From: Gammaproteobacteria bacterium
GTDB taxonomy: Bacteria > Pseudomonadota > Gammaproteobacteria > Ga0077536
DNA length: 64,000 bases
NCBI GenBank assembly: GCA_016209015.1
Contig: JACQWY010000022.1
Location: 310,001-374,000 of the forward strand
Direction of reading: 5' to 3'
Below are positions 10,007-31,640 of the stretch, piece after piece (position 1 is the stretch's first letter; every line of letters starts with the position of its first letter). Below the pieces are notes generated by a model that saw only the letters and a list, made by a program, of their open reading frames with translations, did no database searches and had not been told where the DNA came from. Position numbers and translations under genes: made by a program.

Positions 10007-10897
10007 ATGCCCGCACCCTTAGGACTGCTGCAATTCACCGAAGGCGTCGACGGCGCCACGCTCATCGCGAACGCGCAGAAGCTCGAGCGTCTCGGCTACG
10101 ACACGCTCTGGATCCCGGAAGTGTTCGGCCGCGAGCCGGTCGCGACCTGCGCGTATCTGCTCGCGAAGACGGAGAAGCTCCGCGTCGGCTCGGGGATCCT
10201 GAACATCTATGCCCGCGACGCGCACGCCGCGGCGCAGACCGGCCAGACGCTCGCCGAGATTTCCGGTGGGCGCTTCAGTCTCGGCCTCGGCGTCTCGCAT
10301 CCCGTGCTCGTCGAGCCGCGCGGGCATACGTTCGAGCCGCCCGCGAAGAAGATGCGCAGTTATCTGAAGGCGCTGAAGGCCGCGCACTGCGACGGCCCGA
10401 AGCCCGCACAGCGCCCGCCGGTGATCATCGCCGCGCACGGCCCGAAGCTCGTCGAGCTCGCGGCGCAGGAGGCGGACGGGCTGTTCATGTACCTGCAGCC
10501 GCCCGAGCAGATCGCCTATGCGCGCCAAGTGCTCGGTCCCGACAAGGACATCCACGCCGTCGTGCGCACCGTGCTCTGCCCCGACGGCGCGAAGGCGCGT
10601 GCGATCGCGCGTGCCGCGCTCGGTTTCTACATCCAGTTGCCCGCCTACCATCGCGCCTGGGCGAGCGCGGGCTTCGCTGCCGGTGATTACGCGAACGGCG
10701 GCAGCGATCGCCTGCTCGACGTGATCGCGCCGTGGGGCGATGCGGCGAAGCTGCGCGCGACGCTAGATGCCTTCGTCGCGGCAGGCGCTTCGCACGTCAG
10801 TCTCTATCCGATCCATCCGGACGATGACTACAGTCCGGATCGGGCCGGCGGTCTGCTCTGGGACTGGAAGACGCTGGAGGCGTTGGCGCCGGGGTGA
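10007..10897 (+). CDS. LLM-class F420/flavin oxidoreductase (TIGR03620-like)
   Basis: 296 residues, shorter than the other LLM proteins here. LERLGYDTLWIPEVFGREP, LRVGSGILNIYARDAHAAAQTGQTLAEIS and GGRFSLGLGVSHPVLVEPRG match the family often annotated as F420-dependent TIGR03620; the cofactor is inferred from resemblance only. An AGAGAGG ribosome-binding sequence precedes the ATG. It is the last gene before the low-GC cassette. Confidence 0.86.
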   Translation: MPAPLGLLQFTEGVDGATLIANAQKLERLGYDTLWIPEVFGREPVATCAYLLAKTEKLRVGSGILNIYARDAHAAAQTGQTLAEISGGRFSLGLGVSHPVLVEPRGHTFEPPAKKMRSYLKALKAAHCDGPKPAQRPPVIIAAHGPKLVELAAQEADGLFMYLQPPEQIAYARQVLGPDKDIHAVVRTVLCPDGAKARAIARAALGFYIQLPAYHRAWASAGFAAGDYANGGSDRLLDVIAPWGDAAKLRATLDAFVAAGASHVSLYPIHPDDDYSPDRAGGLLWDWKTLEALAPG

Positions 10898-11069
10898 GCG
10901 ACCGTCTGGGAGTGGTGCCGGGATGTCGCGTTTTAGATCCGCGGGGGTGCTAAGAGCTTTCGCGCAATACTGAGTGAGGTGGTGCGATCCGGTTCAGCGT
11001 AATGTCGCGATAGATCTCAGCGCGTATGTTTACTTAATATCAACGACGTCGAAACGCAGAGCGATCAAC

Positions 11070-12224
11070 TTGATAGTTACACACCTACTTGCGAAGAACT
11101 GGAGAAACTTTCGACACATAGATGTGGCATTGCGTGAGCGGCAGTTTATTGTCGGGCCGAACGCAGCCGGAAAGTCGAATTTTCTTGACTTGTTTAGGTT
11201 TCTCCGAGATATCGCCAAGTCGGAGGGTGGGGGGCTACAGAAAGCTCTAAAGGACCGGGGGGGTGTTCCAAAAGTTCGGAGCCTTGCTGCGCGAAAAGAC
11301 CCCGAAATTGCGATCCAAATTACGCTTGGTGATACACCGTCGACCCCGGCTCTTTGGCGCTATGCTCTAGGCATTAAGCAAGAAGCGCGCGGCTTAAGAC
11401 TGCCCTTTGTCAGCTACGAGCGCGTCTGGCGAGATGGGGAACAAGTTCTTGATCGGCCAGATGGTGAGGATAACAAGGACCCAGCCCGTCTGACGCAAAC
11501 ATTCTTGGAGCAGATCGGTGCGAACAGTAGCTTTCGCGATATAGCGCGCTTTCTTCAAGCGGCGACGTACCTTCACCTTGTACCACAATTGCTGCGGTTT
11601 GCGGACGTAATCCAGGGGCGGATTGTTGAGGACGATCCTTTTGGCCAGAGCTTCTTGGAAAGGATCGCACGAACCACAGACAAGACGCGCCGGGCGCGAC
11701 TGCGCATAATTGAAGAAGCACTTAAAGTTGCTGTGCCGCAGCTTCAGCAATTGCAGTTTACGAGGGATTCAGACACCGGCAGACCGCATCTACAAGCGCT
11801 CTATTCTCACTGGAGGCCCAATGCGGGGTGGCAGCAGGAAGATCAATTCTCGGACGGTACTCTGCGGTTAATTGGCTTGCTTTGGTCACTCTTGGAAGGT
11901 GACTCTCTACTATTGCTAGAGGAACCGGAACTCTCTCTGAATTCCGGGATTGTTGCTCAATTTGCCCCTCTAGTGGCGAGACTTCAGCGACCCCGAAAGC
12001 GCCAAGTAATCGTTAGCACGCACAGCGAAGCCCTCCTAACCGAGCGCGGAATCGATGGAAAAGAAGTGCTCCTACTTACGCCAGAAACAGAAGGCACCCG
12101 CGTAGTCGTTGTTTCAGAGCTATCGGAAGTGCGCTCGCTATTGGAAGCCGGATTCACAGTTGGAGAGGCTGTTCTTCCCAAGACCCGGCCCACTAATCCA
12201 ACTCAACTCGCGCTACTCGATTAG
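11070..12224 (+). CDS. ABC/OLD-type AAA ATPase (COG4637-like), first gene of a putative two-gene defence cassette
   Basis: 384 residues from the proposed TTG start. Walker A GPNAAGKS is at residues 29-36, an ABC-like signature FSDGTLR near 260, Walker B LLLLEEPE near 280-287 and the switch histidine in VSTHSEALL near 318. This is the RecF/SMC-like AAA_15/AAA_21 arrangement, with no transmembrane or nuclease domain of its own. The TTG (MIVTHLLAKNWRNF) is where family homology begins; an in-frame GTG at 10974 would add 32 unlike residues. A TAATAT -10-like hexamer sits at 11035-11040. Base composition is much lower in GC than all neighbours. The stop is 2 nt from the next start, so translation is probably coupled. 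Confidence 0.8.
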   Translation: MIVTHLLAKNWRNFRHIDVALRERQFIVGPNAAGKSNFLDLFRFLRDIAKSEGGGLQKALKDRGGVPKVRSLAARKDPEIAIQITLGDTPSTPALWRYALGIKQEARGLRLPFVSYERVWRDGEQVLDRPDGEDNKDPARLTQTFLEQIGANSSFRDIARFLQAATYLHLVPQLLRFADVIQGRIVEDDPFGQSFLERIARTTDKTRRARLRIIEEALKVAVPQLQQLQFTRDSDTGRPHLQALYSHWRPNAGWQQEDQFSDGTLRLIGLLWSLLEGDSLLLLEEPELSLNSGIVAQFAPLVARLQRPRKRQVIVSTHSEALLTERGIDGKEVLLLTPETEGTRVVVVSELSEVRSLLEAGFTVGEAVLPKTRPTNPTQLALLD

Positions 12225-12226
12225 TA

Positions 12227-12811
12227 ATGATTCTTGCAGTCGAGGATACGCTAAGCGAAAGCTTGCTTAGAAAAATGGTAACGGTAATCCGCTCCGACAT
12301 TGCAATTGGAAGCACCATCGGGAACCGCGGCAAGAGTTATCTTCAGTCCCGAGCTCTTGAATTGAATAGAACTGCTCGAAGTCTACCAGTATTCATGATG
12401 ATCGATTTGGACAGTCGCACACACTGCCCGCTTGAAGTTCGTGATCAGTGGTTCAAAGCCGCACCTCAACCGAATATGTTATTTCGCGTTGCGGTAATGG
12501 AGGTCGAGTCCTGGATTCTCGCTGATCGCGTTCGCTGCGCGACATTCCTTGGAGTGCAAGCTAATCGAATACCTCACGAGTGCGATTCGATCCAAATGCC
12601 AAAGGAATTCATAGTAAATCTTGCGCGTCGGTCGCGAAAGAAGAGCATTCGGGAAGATATGGTGCCGGCGCTCGGAGCGACTATATCATTTGGCCCCGCG
12701 TACAACGCGCGGCTCACTGAGTTCATCGAACGTTGTTGGGACCCGACTGAAGCGGCTACGAATTCTGAAAGCCTAGATCGCGCGCTGCGCCGTCTCGAGG
12801 TCGCATTTTGA
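12227..12811 (+). CDS. TOPRIM-like small protein (DUF4276/RloB-like), partner of the ATPase
   Basis: 194 residues. The acidic pattern resembles a TOPRIM-type metal site: Glu6 in MILAVEDTLSE, Asp60 and Asp62 in FMMIDLDSR, and Glu92/Glu94/Asp100 in MEVESWILAD. I do not recognise the exact family; DUF4276-, RloB- and OLD-nuclease-type proteins share this layout (inference). Later conserved-looking blocks are NLARRSRKKSIRED and GPAYNARL. The gene follows the ATPase with a 2-nt gap and shares its low GC. ATPase plus TOPRIM is the arrangement of PARIS, OLD/Gabija and AbiL-type phage defence, but no known system is matched exactly. Confidence 0.7.
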   Translation: MILAVEDTLSESLLRKMVTVIRSDIAIGSTIGNRGKSYLQSRALELNRTARSLPVFMMIDLDSRTHCPLEVRDQWFKAAPQPNMLFRVAVMEVESWILADRVRCATFLGVQANRIPHECDSIQMPKEFIVNLARRSRKKSIREDMVPALGATISFGPAYNARLTEFIERCWDPTEAATNSESLDRALRRLEVAF

Positions 12812-13063
12812 GAGATGATGCAGATTGATCGATCTGCGATCGCGTGAGGCGAGTGGAGCCCGGCTCCAGGGACAATGCGTTTTGGTCTGAAGCTAGCGTG
12901 GTCGAGCACGCAGGTAGAGCTGGTCCTGGCTTGTAATCCACGTGGCCGAGCAGCGCCTCTCCGGCTATTCTCCAATCCAACCAAATGGCCCTATGATTCG
13001 GGCAGCAGCGTCACCCGCTGTCCCGCCAAGGCAGGCGCCCCCATCGACGTGTCCACGTTCACG

Positions 13064-13081
13064 CGAGGAGATGACCTGATG
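13064..13081 (+). promoter_or_regulatory. Ribosome-binding site fixing the original monooxygenase start
   Basis: GAGGAG at 13064-13069 stands 9 nt before the ATG at 13079. This marks the ancestral start of the Baeyer-Villiger gene, out of frame with most of its coding sequence. Confidence 0.6.
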
Positions 13082-13300
13082 AACGAGCCCGTACCGCCCG
13101 TGTCTTTCGTCCGCGACGGCAAGCTCTACGTGCCGACGACCGCCGAGCTCGGCTTCGATCCGCAGGCGCTGCGGCGCAAGTACGATTTCGAACGCGATCG
13201 CCGCCTGCGTCCGGACGGCGCGACGCAGTACCAGAACACCGACGGCGCGCTCGAGCACTACGTCGACGATCCCTATGTCACCGAGCACGTCGCGCGCGCC
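13079..13300 (+). pseudogene. Out-of-frame N-terminal segment of the Baeyer-Villiger monooxygenase
   Basis: The frame from ATG 13079 encodes the leader typical of this BVMO group ([19 protein letters not shown], then [12 protein letters not shown]). It continues meaninglessly after about 13290 and stops at 13636. The rest of the protein is in the next frame (from 13275). A one-base insertion in the GC run at 13290-13305 would explain this; removing one base there restores a single ~616-residue enzyme. It may be a real mutation or a sequencing/assembly error. Confidence 0.75.
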
Positions 13301-14927
13301 GCTGACGGCGACGATCGAGGTCGCGATCCTCGGCGGCGGCTTCGGCGGGATGTTGATGGGCGCACGCCTGGAAGAAGCGGGCATCCGCGACTTCCGCATC
13401 ATCGAGCGTGCCGGCGATTTCGGCGGCACGTGGTACTGGAACCGCTATCCGGGCGCGCAGTGCGACGTCGAGTCCTACATCTATCTGCCGCTGCTCGACG
13501 AGACGGGCTACATGCCCGAGCTCAAGTATTCCTTCCAGCCCGAGATCTTCGCGCACGCCCAGCGCATCGGCCGGCACTTCGATCTCTATTCGCGCGCGCT
13601 GTTCCAGACGCACGTGACCGGGCTGCGGTGGGATGACGAGGACGCGCGCTGGATCGCGACGACGGATCGGGGCGACGTGCTGCGCGCGCGGCAGGTCGTG
13701 ATCTCGAGCGGCTCGCTGAACCGGCCGAAGCTGCCGGGCATTCCGGGGCTCGATGAATTCCAGGGCCACACGTTCCACACGAGCCGCTGGGACTATGCGT
13801 ACACGGGCGGCGCGGCGGGCGGCAGTCTCGATCGCCTCGGCGACAAGCGGGTCGGCATCATCGGCACGGGCGCGACGGCGATCCAGGCGATTCCGCATCT
13901 CGGTGCGGCGGCCGGGCGGTTGTACGTTTTCCAGCGCACGCCGTCCTCCATCGACGAGCGGCGCAACCGGCCGACGGATCCCGCGTGGTTCGCGGGGCTG
14001 CGCAAGGGCTGGCAGCGCGAGCGCAACGACAACTTCACGAAGCTCCTCGTCGGCGTGCCGGTCGAGGAGGACCTCGTGAACGACGGCTGGACGGCGCTCT
14101 TCAAGTCGCTCGGCGAACTGCTCGGCAACGGCGGTGCCGAGCTCTCGCCGGACGAGCTGAAGCTGCTCGGCGAGCTCCTCGACTTTCAGCACGACGAGCG
14201 CGTGCGCGCGCGCGTCGACGAGATCGTGCGCGATCCGAAGACCGCGGAAGCGCTGAAGCACTGGTACCGGCCGTGGTGCAAGCGGCCGTGCTTCAACGAC
14301 GACTATCTGCCGACGTTCAACCGGCCGAACGTGACGCTCGTCGACACGAACGGCCGCGGCGTCGAACGCCTCACGAAGCACGGCATCGTCGTCGACGGCG
14401 TCGAATACGCGCTCGACTGCCTCATCTTCGCGACGGGCTTCGAAGTGAGCCGCGCGACGTACACGCATCAGGCGGCGCTCGACATCGTCGGCCGCGACGG
14501 CGTGACGCTCGGCGCGCACTGGGCGCGCGGCATGCGGACGTATCATGGTCTCATGAGCCACGGCTTCCCGAACCTCTATCACCTGGGCTTCACGCAGACC
14601 GGCTACACGCCGAATTTCACGTATCAGCTCGACAAGCAGGCGCAGCACCTCGCCGCCGTCTTCGCCGACTTGCAGGCGCGCGAGTGGCGCGCGCTCGAGC
14701 CGACGCGCGAGGCCGAAGCGGACTACGTCGCGCTCGTCACGGCGCCGAACGCGATGTCGGAATATCTCGCGAACTGCACGCCCGGTTACTACAACGCCGA
14801 GGGCTCTTCGAAGCACGACAACGACGGCTTCCTGCAGGGACATTACCCGGAAGGCGGATTGAAGTTCTACGAGATGCTCGCCGCGTGGCGCGCGCGTGGG
14901 GATTACGCAGGCATGACGGCGTGCTGA
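13275..14927 (+). CDS. Flavin-containing (Baeyer-Villiger) monooxygenase, main reading frame
   Basis: 550 residues carrying the full catalytic body. The FAD Rossmann motif [15 protein letters not shown] comes first, then [21 protein letters not shown], characteristic of BVMO-type enzymes. A second nucleotide-binding motif for [20 protein letters not shown], and a late [12 protein letters not shown] block follow. Such enzymes insert oxygen beside a ketone to give an ester or lactone. The normal N-terminal leader lies upstream in another frame (13079-13300), so the gene is either frameshifted or restarts at ATG 13275. It fits the ketone/terpenoid theme of the LLM neighbours. Confidence 0.85.
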
Positions 14928-28471: not shown

Positions 28472-30658
28472 TCAACGGCGTCGCTTGCCGGCGCCGCTCG
28501 GACTGCCCGGCTTCTGCTGGCGAACCGGCTTGCGCGGTGCCGTGCGGGCGGCGCTCTCGAGCCCGGTGTGCTGCGTGCGGAAGTTGCCCGTCTTGCGGCG
28601 CGCACCCTCGGGGGCATGGCCCGTGCCGCGGGGCTGGAAACGCGGCACGAGCTGCTCGGAACCGCTGCCGATCAGATCCGGGCGCCCCATGCGTTCGAGT
28701 GCCGCGCGCAGCATCGGCCAGTTGTTGGGATCGTGGTAGCGGAGGAAGGCCTTGTGCAGGCGGCGCACGCGCAGGCCGCGCGGGATGACGACGTCTTCGC
28801 TCGTCCGCGTGACTTTGCGCAGCGGGTTCTTGCCGGAGTGATACATCGCGGTCGCGATCGCCATCGGGGAGGGCAGGAAAGCCTGCACCTGATCGGCCCG
28901 GTAATCATTGCGCTTCAACCAGAGTGCGAGCGCGAGCATGTCCTCGTCCGTCGTCCCGGGATGAGCCGCGATGAAATAGGGAATGAGGTACTGCTCTTTG
29001 CCGGCAGCCTTCGAATACTTGTCGAAGAGCTGTTTGAAGCGATGGTACGCACCCATGCCCGGCTTCATCATCTTGCCGAGCGGCCCGGGCTCCGTGTGCT
29101 CCGGTGCGATCTTGAGATACCCGCCGACGTGATGCTGTGCGAGCTCCTTGACGTACTCGGGCGACTTCGCGGCGAGGTCGTAGCGCACGCCGGAGGCGAT
29201 GAAGATTTTCTTGATGCCCGGAAGCGTGCGCGCGCGGCGATAGAGCTTGATGAGCGGCGCGTGATCCGTGTCCAGATTCGCGCAGACGTCGGGGAACACG
29301 CAGGACGGCTTGCGACACGCGGACTCGATCTCGCGGCTGCGGCAGGCGAGACGATACATGTTCGCCGTCGGGCCGCCGAGATCGGAGATGACGCCCGTGA
29401 AGCCCGGCACGGTGTCGCGGATCGTCTCGATCTCGCGGATTACCGAATCCTCCGAGCGGCTCTGGATGATGCGGCCTTCGTGCTCCGTGATCGAGCAGAA
29501 CGTGCAGCCGCCGAAGCAGCCGCGCTGAATGGGGATCGAGAAGCGGATCATTTCGTAGGCCGGAATCTTCGCATCGCCGTAGGACGGGTGCGGCAGCCGG
29601 CGATAAGGAAGCTCGTAGATCCGATCGAATTCCTCGGTACTGAGCGGCAGCGGCGGCGGATTGAGCCAGACGTCGACGTCGCCGTGTCGCTGCACGAGCG
29701 CGCGAGCGTTGCCCGGATTCGACTCTAGATGCAGGAGGCGCGAGGCATGCGCGTAGAGCACCGGATCGTCCACCACCTGCTCGAACGACGGCAGGCGCAC
29801 CACGCTGCGCCCGCGATCGGCGTTCGCCACTTTCATACGCCCGATGGCGCCTGGCGCGATCCGGATTTCGCCCGGGATCGCCGCCGGCGTATCGGCCTGG
29901 GGCTCCATGGCGTAGGGATCCCGCGGCGGATCGATCGGCCCGGGATGGTCAATGGTCGTCGAATCGATCTCGATCACCGCGCCCGATCGCGCGTGGCTCA
30001 CGAAAGCCGTACCGCGCAGGTCGCGGATCTCGTCGATCGCCGCGCCGCCGGCGAGGCGGTGGGCGATCTCGACGATCTGACGTTCCGCATTGCCGAAGAC
30101 GAGCAGGTCGGCCTTGGCGTCGAGGAGTATCGAGCGGCGGACCTTTTCCGACCAATAGTCGAAGTGCGCGATGCGACGCAGGCTCGCCTCGATCCCGCCA
30201 ATCACGATCGGCACGTCGGAGAACGCCTCGCGCGCACGCTGCGCATAGACGATGACCGAGCGGTCGGGGCGCTTGCCGGCTTCACCACCCGGCGTATAAG
30301 CGTCATCGTGTCGCAGCCGGCGATCGGCGGTGTAGCGATTCACCATGGAATCCATGTTGCCCGCCGTAATGCCGAAGAACAGACGCGGTCTGCCGAGCCT
30401 CGAGAACGCCGCCGCGCTGCGCCAGTCGGGCTGGGCGATGATGCCCACGCGAAAGCCCTGCGCTTCGAGCAGCCTGCCCACGATCGCCATGCCGAAGCTC
30501 GGATGGTCGACATAGGCATCGCCCGTGACGAGGACGATGTCGCAGGCGTCCCAACCGAGCGCGTCCATTTCGTCCACGGTCATGGGCAGAAAAGGCGCGA
30601 TCCCGAACCGGGATGCCCAGAATTTCCGGAAGGAAAAGAGGTTTTTTGCGGAATCCAT
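28472..30658 (-). CDS. ygiQ: YgiQ family radical SAM protein
   Basis: 728 residues. The N-terminal B12-binding-like region begins after [18 protein letters not shown]. The radical SAM cluster motif CFGGCTFCS lies in the middle, preceded by [10 protein letters not shown]. The signature segments [18 protein letters not shown] and [16 protein letters not shown] are typical of YgiQ/UPF0313. The C-terminus ends in a basic Arg/Lys/Gly-rich tail. The reaction is not established. Length matches the family and start ATG 30658 gives the usual [10 protein letters not shown]-like opening. Confidence 0.93.
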
Positions 30659-30766
30659 TGCGGAATGATACCGGAATGCCGGGAACCGGCGCCTCCGGTC
30701 GGAATACGCGGAACAGGCCCGTGCAGGCCTAGCGCTCGAGCGAGCGAATCACCTATTCGACATTAA

Positions 30767-30918
30767 GGAAGCTCTGAACAAGTTCAGAGCTTCCTGCGGC
30801 ACATGGACGTGCCGCCGTGAACAGTGGCGTAAGCCATTGTTCACGTAAGATCGGTAAGAACCACGCTTCTTGCCGACCGTGCTCTGAAAAGTCCAGGATG
30901 GACTTATTCAGAGCTTCC
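30767..30918. mobile_element. MITE-like element, copy 2
   Basis: 152 bp, same orientation as copy 1, with exact TTAA duplications at 30763-30766 and 30919-30922. The ends GGAAGCTCTGAACAAGT and TTATTCAGAGCTTCC are intact. Unlike the other three copies it does not touch a stop codon; the RRM gene stops 62 nt to the right. Confidence 0.88.
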
Positions 30919-30983
30919 TTAAGAAACCGGGACCGCCAAACTCGCGGCCCCGGTGTCCTTCCGCGGAAGGAAGTACTGACAGC

Positions 30984-31256
30984 TCAGTACTGAACTCGGC
31001 GTCGCGGACGATCTTCGCGGGGCTTCGCTTCATTCACCCGCATGTTTCGCCCTTTGAGGGGTTTTTCGTTCAAGGCTTTGATTGCCTCGTTCGCCTGCGC
31101 GTTGTTTGGCATCTCCACGAAACCAAAACCTTTTGAACGGCCGGAAAACTTATCCATCACGACGTTTGCGCTGGACACGTCACCATAGGCCGAGAAGGCC
31201 TCGTTGAGATCGGTATCCGTCACGCTATAGGCCAGATTGCCAACGTATATATTCAT
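30984..31256 (-). CDS. RRM RNA-binding protein (small, cold-shock type), copy 2
   Basis: 90 residues with RNP2 IYVGNL and RNP1 KGFGFVEM and a basic tail PREDRPRRRVQY. It is about half identical to the RRM protein at 27845-28138. The shared MNIYVGNL start confirms ATG 31256. The gene is AT-richer than its neighbours. It would act as an RNA chaperone or regulator in the cytoplasm. Confidence 0.92.
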   Translation of the reverse strand: MNIYVGNLAYSVTDTDLNEAFSAYGDVSSANVVMDKFSGRSKGFGFVEMPNNAQANEAIKALNEKPLKGRNMRVNEAKPREDRPRRRVQY

Positions 31257-31640
31257 TCGGGTCTCTCATCATTGAAGTGCGTTGATCAAAATCGCGATAC
31301 CGGGCAACCAACCGCACAAATTCCCCGACACCGAATTGCCGTCAAAGCGGCAAATCTCTCTTCACCTTAAAGCTTTTTACGTTGGTCTCTGGTCAGTGCT
31401 CGAGCGTCGTTAGCGATGCGCGCAGCCATTTTGAGCCGGCCGTTAATAATGTGTGGTTGACATACTAACTCAACAGATCCGGCGAGGGATATACCTTTAA
31501 AAAGAAAATGTTACGCGCGAATTATGTGGCGCCGCACTAGGTGCGCCGCAGCAAATCATCGGCGGCGATTGCGCGATGCCCGACGGCTAAGACAAGTGCG
31601 CGACTGGATACGGCGGTGCCGTGCGGCGCGAGACCGTACT
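31257..31640. other. Gene-free AT-rich stretch upstream of RRM copy 2
   Basis: 384 bp, AT-rich between about 31300 and 31530. It presumably holds the RRM promoter and a long leader. A lone TTGACA (31457-31462) has no convincing -10. No coding signal seen. Confidence 0.5.

Follow-up and report, generated by a model that had tools for sequence, protein, structure and literature searches.

The two adjacent genes at positions 11070 to 12811 of the window, by which we mean the whole 64,000-nucleotide stretch that was analysed, constitute a real, well bounded and horizontally acquired unit, and by profile comparison the pair is a member of HEC-01, an already catalogued candidate defence family. It is fairly probable that this acquired HEC-01 module works like PARIS, acting by abortive infection. 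The initial annotation had placed both frames at these coordinates, 2 nt apart, and they were found there as claimed. The features are the following:

11070..12224, + strand: ABC/OLD-type ATPase of the HEC-01A family (384 aa, TTG start)
12227..12811, + strand: predicted stand-alone small TOPRIM nuclease of the HEC-01B family, a remote DUF4276 relative by sequence (194 aa, ATG start)
10901..13096, no strand: extent of the foreign island, from flank DNA similarity to relatives and low GC

The TTG start of the ATPase falls at the same start residue in nearly all homologues. Both genes had been described as AT-richer than their flanks and rich in codons rare elsewhere in the window, which proved correct: GC is 0.53 in the ATPase gene and 0.51 in the TOPRIM gene vs 0.66-0.75 in 11 nearby genes, GC3 is 0.52 and 0.51 vs 0.84-0.90, and the rare-codon fraction is 0.36 and 0.32 vs 0.015-0.068 (32-36% against 1.5-6.8%). 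Compared with genomes of the same family, the flanking DNA loses its similarity at ~10890-10900 and regains it at ~13097, and these breaks delimit a foreign island of ~2.2 kb, with a low-GC stretch from ~10940 to ~12990 and with the ATPase and TOPRIM genes as its only gene content. An intact pre-insertion (empty) site was not found; both flanks are conserved in relatives, but on separate contigs there. Neither long direct repeats nor a tRNA were found at the island edges, a simple scan gave no promoter-like site for the pair, and there was no Rfam match in the window. The genes flanking the pair in the window encode luciferase-like monooxygenases and a Baeyer-Villiger-type monooxygenase, the downstream gene being a monooxygenase; neither a helicase nor a reverse transcriptase adjoins the pair in the window, in agreement with the earlier statement that no helicase lies beside it. 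The Baeyer-Villiger-type monooxygenase gene to the right of the island (13079-14927) is apparently split by a frameshift near 13290, a lesion that may be real or a sequencing error, the intact comparison gene being L131:2093-3937 (614 aa). Another AT-richer stretch (GC ~0.54), lacking a convincing long coding frame, was observed at 30500-31600 of the window.

The first protein is an OLD/Rad50-type ABC ATPase that belongs to Pfam AAA_21 (E 3e-37). Its Walker A (GPNAAGKSN, G29-N37), signature (FSDGT, F260-T264), Walker B (LLLLEEPE, L280-E285) and switch-His (THS, His318) motifs are invariant or nearly so across 75 aligned homologues, which share 44-72% identity with the window ATPase, and the chain has no nuclease domain, so that the original description of this gene is upheld on both points. 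The predicted model (pLDDT 89) resembles PtuA (Septu, retrons), Rad50/SMC heads and AriA (Z 19.3), and by sequence the closest solved proteins, GajA, match over residues 1-57. The HEC-01A profile PDLC04180 matches residues 1-381 of 384 (E 2.7e-154); the AriA model PDLC02980 (E 4e-35) scores like general AAA_21 and far weaker than HEC-01A.

The second protein is matched by the HEC-01B profile PDLC04194 over residues 2-191 of 194 (E 2.5e-58), and its key residues are E6, D60xD62, E92xE94 and K126. TOPRIM domains are marked by a Glu after the first strand, a Gly after the second and a DxD after the third (PMC6755086); in the second protein, with predicted strands at 2-5, 29-32 and 55-60, these marks are E6, G35 and D60/D62. 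Among 78 homologues E6, E92, E94 and W96 are invariant, D60 is present in 77, G35 in 76 and D62 in 73. The acidic layout originally proposed thus stands for E6, D60/D62 and E92/E94, and fails for Asp100, position 100 being D in only 61 of the 78. In Bp OLD the active-site residues are E400, D455xD457 and T506xE508, the last being the metal B ligands (PMC6755086). The E6-D60 spacing is 54 in the second protein vs 55 for E400-D455 in Bp OLD, and from order and spacing E92xE94 probably corresponds to T506xE508. At position 62 three homologues carry DxE (L060, L080 and L090), all from Chloroflexota (Dehalococcoidia), so that the active-site variation seems in part to go with lineage, and L064 carries DxN; in L002:12-617 (genome G081) the DxD is replaced by NQS and the ATPase branch is very long, this copy being possibly decayed or repurposed. 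With three DxE, one DxN and one NxS sequences, a few HEC-01B copies may be altered or inactive.

A TOPRIM fold for this protein is firmly indicated by structural modelling. The AlphaFold2 model is confident (pLDDT 95.8, pTM 0.90), and in VIA-align each of rows 1-9 is a TOPRIM nuclease or else PH0156, which is TOPRIM-like (Z 5.7-9.5 over 140-163 aligned residues), the seven best matches each spanning 152-163 of the 194 residues. The top row is the OLD C-terminal region 6nk8 (Z 9.5, rmsd 3.6, 161 aligned), with further OLD C-terminal rows 6njv, 6njx and 6njw (Z 8.3, 8.1 and 8.0); AriB appears as 8ux9 (Z 8.7, 161 aligned) and 8v46, the second AriB at Z 7.8, PH0156 (2p62) scores Z 8.6 and retron Eco2 Z 6.0 and 5.7, while other folds start at 5.7 and then drop. 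Foldseek gave no significant match for the model against the PDB (best E 0.26, AriB at ranks 2 and 16) or against viral models (an RloB-like protein having the highest probability, 0.60, at E 0.51), and a PDB sequence search with the second-protein profile yielded no usable match, a profile match to Crov588 (E 2e-5) having been rejected since it covered 30 residues with no stretch passing alone. The structural comparison nonetheless left standing the TOPRIM-like character that the initial annotation had read from the acidic residues. With OLD at Z 9.5 and AriB at Z 8.7, in effect a tie, the fold is neutral between RNA and DNA as substrate.

By profile comparison the second protein is also a remote relative of DUF4276 (PF14103). 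It scores 16.6 bits, under the Pfam cutoff of 30.2, several of its relatives come nearer to that cutoff (L047, 27.1 bits), and in more distant HEC-01 pairs the DUF4276 protein lies above it. Profile-profile comparison with DUF4276 proteins gave 97.6% probability, aligning E6, D60/D62 and E92/E94 with DUF4276 E8 of VEGQ, D85xD87 and E120xE122. This suggests that DUF4276, a domain of unknown function, is a TOPRIM nuclease; a literature search on DUF4276 found nothing.

A single-protein search of genome contigs found no relatives, and an alignment-based profile search, run on genomes of bacteria and archaea, turned up 344 confirmed relatives, the best 80 of which were analysed. In 79 of these 80 loci the ATPase gene immediately precedes that of the second protein in the same orientation, the remaining locus beginning at a contig end; among the same best 80 of 344 the junction measures -14 to +2 nt in 76 of 79 pairs, with a 4-nt overlap in 47, which suggests translational coupling. 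The homologues are thus regular neighbours, and chance, frameshift debris and core-gene readings of the pair are ruled out by the conserved open frames and the pairing. The best 80 of 344 represent at least 16 named phyla and include four Methanobacteriota (archaea) loci. Within the window's own family the pair is present in only one of 36 genomes, the window's own, and across the phylum 14 of 398 genomes have a second-protein match, six of them strong with the window's own counted. In the ATPase tree the window sequence groups with two Acidobacteriota (100/96) and then with one Myxococcota sequence, the 'same phylum' sequences being placed elsewhere, mostly among Pseudomonadota, which is probably also the phylum of the window. 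Foreign composition, presence in 1/36 family genomes and a cross-phylum tree together bear out the horizontal acquisition that had been proposed.

Some relatives are carried by phage-like DNA. In the viral contig L102, head-closure, tail and tape-measure genes, an Rz-like spanin and a DNA methylase gene are followed by the pair, which comes after the spanin gene in a tail cluster resembling that of P2; the viral contig L100 has portal and terminase genes together with the pair, and in L005 a phage-type repressor precedes it. Such a location of cargo, 3' of lysis genes, is typical of defence systems on prophages. A 78-kb viral contig (L103:8001-10440) has an HEC-01A-type ATPase followed by a second AAA_21-like ATPase, with no recognisable TOPRIM gene. 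No relatives were found in annotated phages or plasmids. The 133 genes adjacent to homologues include PADLOC families such as type II/III methylases, Hma, SoFic and Zorya-like MotB, among others; 115 more distant control genes scatter alike, so that this rough comparison of family tallies shows no clear enrichment of defence genes beside the homologues.

The HECs were reportedly defined in a 2024 preprint by Payne et al. The acronym denotes Hma-embedded candidates, several of which, including HEC-06, have been reported to be antiviral (PMC12988326), and HEC-01 is mentioned once, in the defence list of one strain (PMC12724379). No published test or mechanism of HEC-01 was found; the HEC-defining preprint (doi 10.1101/2024.01.29.577857) may report one. 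The suggestion that the pair represents an undescribed system has to be abandoned, given that the two adjacent genes match the HEC-01A and HEC-01B models of PADLOC-DB along their full length. The window pair differs in standing alone in a metabolic region and not within an Hma operon, and it falls in the PDLC04180/PDLC04194 subgroup, whose nuclease scores under the DUF4276 cutoff.

Its distinctness from PARIS, Gabija and AbiL proper, also claimed at the outset, was confirmed. With PARIS it shares separate genes for an ABC ATPase and a stand-alone TOPRIM nuclease, resembling AriA and AriB in structure (Z 19.3 and 8.7), but there is no match to the AriB (DUF4435-type) model at E up to 1, and the second protein has 194 aa vs 306 residues in the AriB chain. 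HEC-04/IbfA and the class 1-2 OLD proteins (Old, GajA) also combine an OLD-type ATPase with TOPRIM, but in one fused chain and not in two genes; HEC-04, in which TOPRIM is fused to an ABC ATPase, is reported to make E. coli resistant to T4 and T5 (PMC12111858). Gabija adds the GajB helicase to the fused GajA, whereas here there are two genes and no GajB. For AbiL/RloAB the likeness is a weak ATPase match to AbiLi (E 1.5e-18), but up to E 1 neither RloB nor AbiLii profiles match the second protein. The ATPase also matches mad3 of MADS (E 3.3e-20), but at 68.9 bits against a curated cutoff of 420, and other MADS genes do not adjoin it. Unlike retrons of the Eco8 type, the pair has no reverse transcriptase and no ncRNA Rfam match near it, its flanks being oxidoreductases.

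In PARIS, AriB stays attached to a hexamer of AriA as long as no phage protein has bound, and the freed AriB dimerises and cuts host tRNA (PMC12409363; PMC11455837). By analogy, HEC-01A would act as both sensor and restraint, assembling into an ABC dimer or a larger oligomer, binding ATP and keeping hold of HEC-01B, the small TOPRIM protein; on a signal from the phage HEC-01A would change, causing HEC-01B to be released or activated, and HEC-01B would then cut nucleic acid (RNA or DNA) through a two-metal site formed by E6, D60, D62 and E94, with E11/E92 helping, so that infection would be stopped by abortive infection. A HEC-01A/HEC-01B complex that operates by restraint and release is what we infer from the comparison, and it would be favoured by the division into two genes, by folds that match and by the constancy of the pairing; a PARIS-like mechanism is plausible, and the defence or toxin-type module first proposed is supported, with a predicted antiviral role. 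Counting against defence are the metabolic neighbours in the window, where there is no defence island.

The same data can be read in other ways, of which DNA restriction resembling that of OLD or Gabija, with ATPase and TOPRIM protein staying bound, the complex nicking or degrading phage DNA and ATP binding serving as a brake, is rather doubtful. The best structural match of the second protein is the OLD C-terminal nuclease, a DNA cutter, the ATPase N-terminus is by sequence nearest GajA, and retron-Eco8 and GajA are DNA cutters; but OLD and AriB are tied in fold, and separate genes with a small stand-alone TOPRIM resemble AriA/AriB more than a one-chain OLD. The tight coupling of overlapping genes, the prophage carriage and the description of PARIS as a toxin-antitoxin type system (PMC11455837) would fit a selfish toxin-antitoxin pair, in which HEC-01A restrains a toxic HEC-01B and the pair is kept by addiction, phage defence being at most a side effect. 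We regard this as unlikely, for the size of the ATPase and its place as the first gene speak for a sensor rather than a plain antitoxin, and no plasmid copies were found. Both readings partly overlap the PARIS-like one, so the likelihoods given here do not exclude each other.

Very improbable is a housekeeping or chromosome-maintenance function like that of the archaeal OLD-family enzyme Cran1, which has a cell-cycle role rather than a defence one (PMC12796447). That precedent, the metabolic neighbours and the lack of clear defence-gene enrichment around homologues speak for it, but the patchy presence, the foreign composition with a cross-phylum tree, the prophage carriage and the occurrence of relatives beside type III R-M genes argue against it. 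A further proposal can be made only tentatively: the HEC-01 subgroup of the window pair could represent a class of its own within split OLD-type immunity, having its own phage trigger and a minimal ~195-residue TOPRIM nuclease that acts on a particular tRNA, on rRNA or on an intermediate of phage replication, and thus on a substrate unlike those of AriB, GajA or retron OLD.

HEC-01 is widespread, given the range of phyla reached by relatives of the window copy, and the alignment, the confident fold and the near-invariant residues point to the exact mutants with which it can be tested. The window's genome (G000) carries a second, divergent HEC-01 pair at 53.5-55.4 kb of contig C5 (L129:7473-9436; L004), matched by HEC-01A PDLC04182 (E 6e-170) and HEC-01B PDLC04205 (E 1.7e-78); this pair adjoins a type III R-M methylase and is AT-richer than its surroundings.
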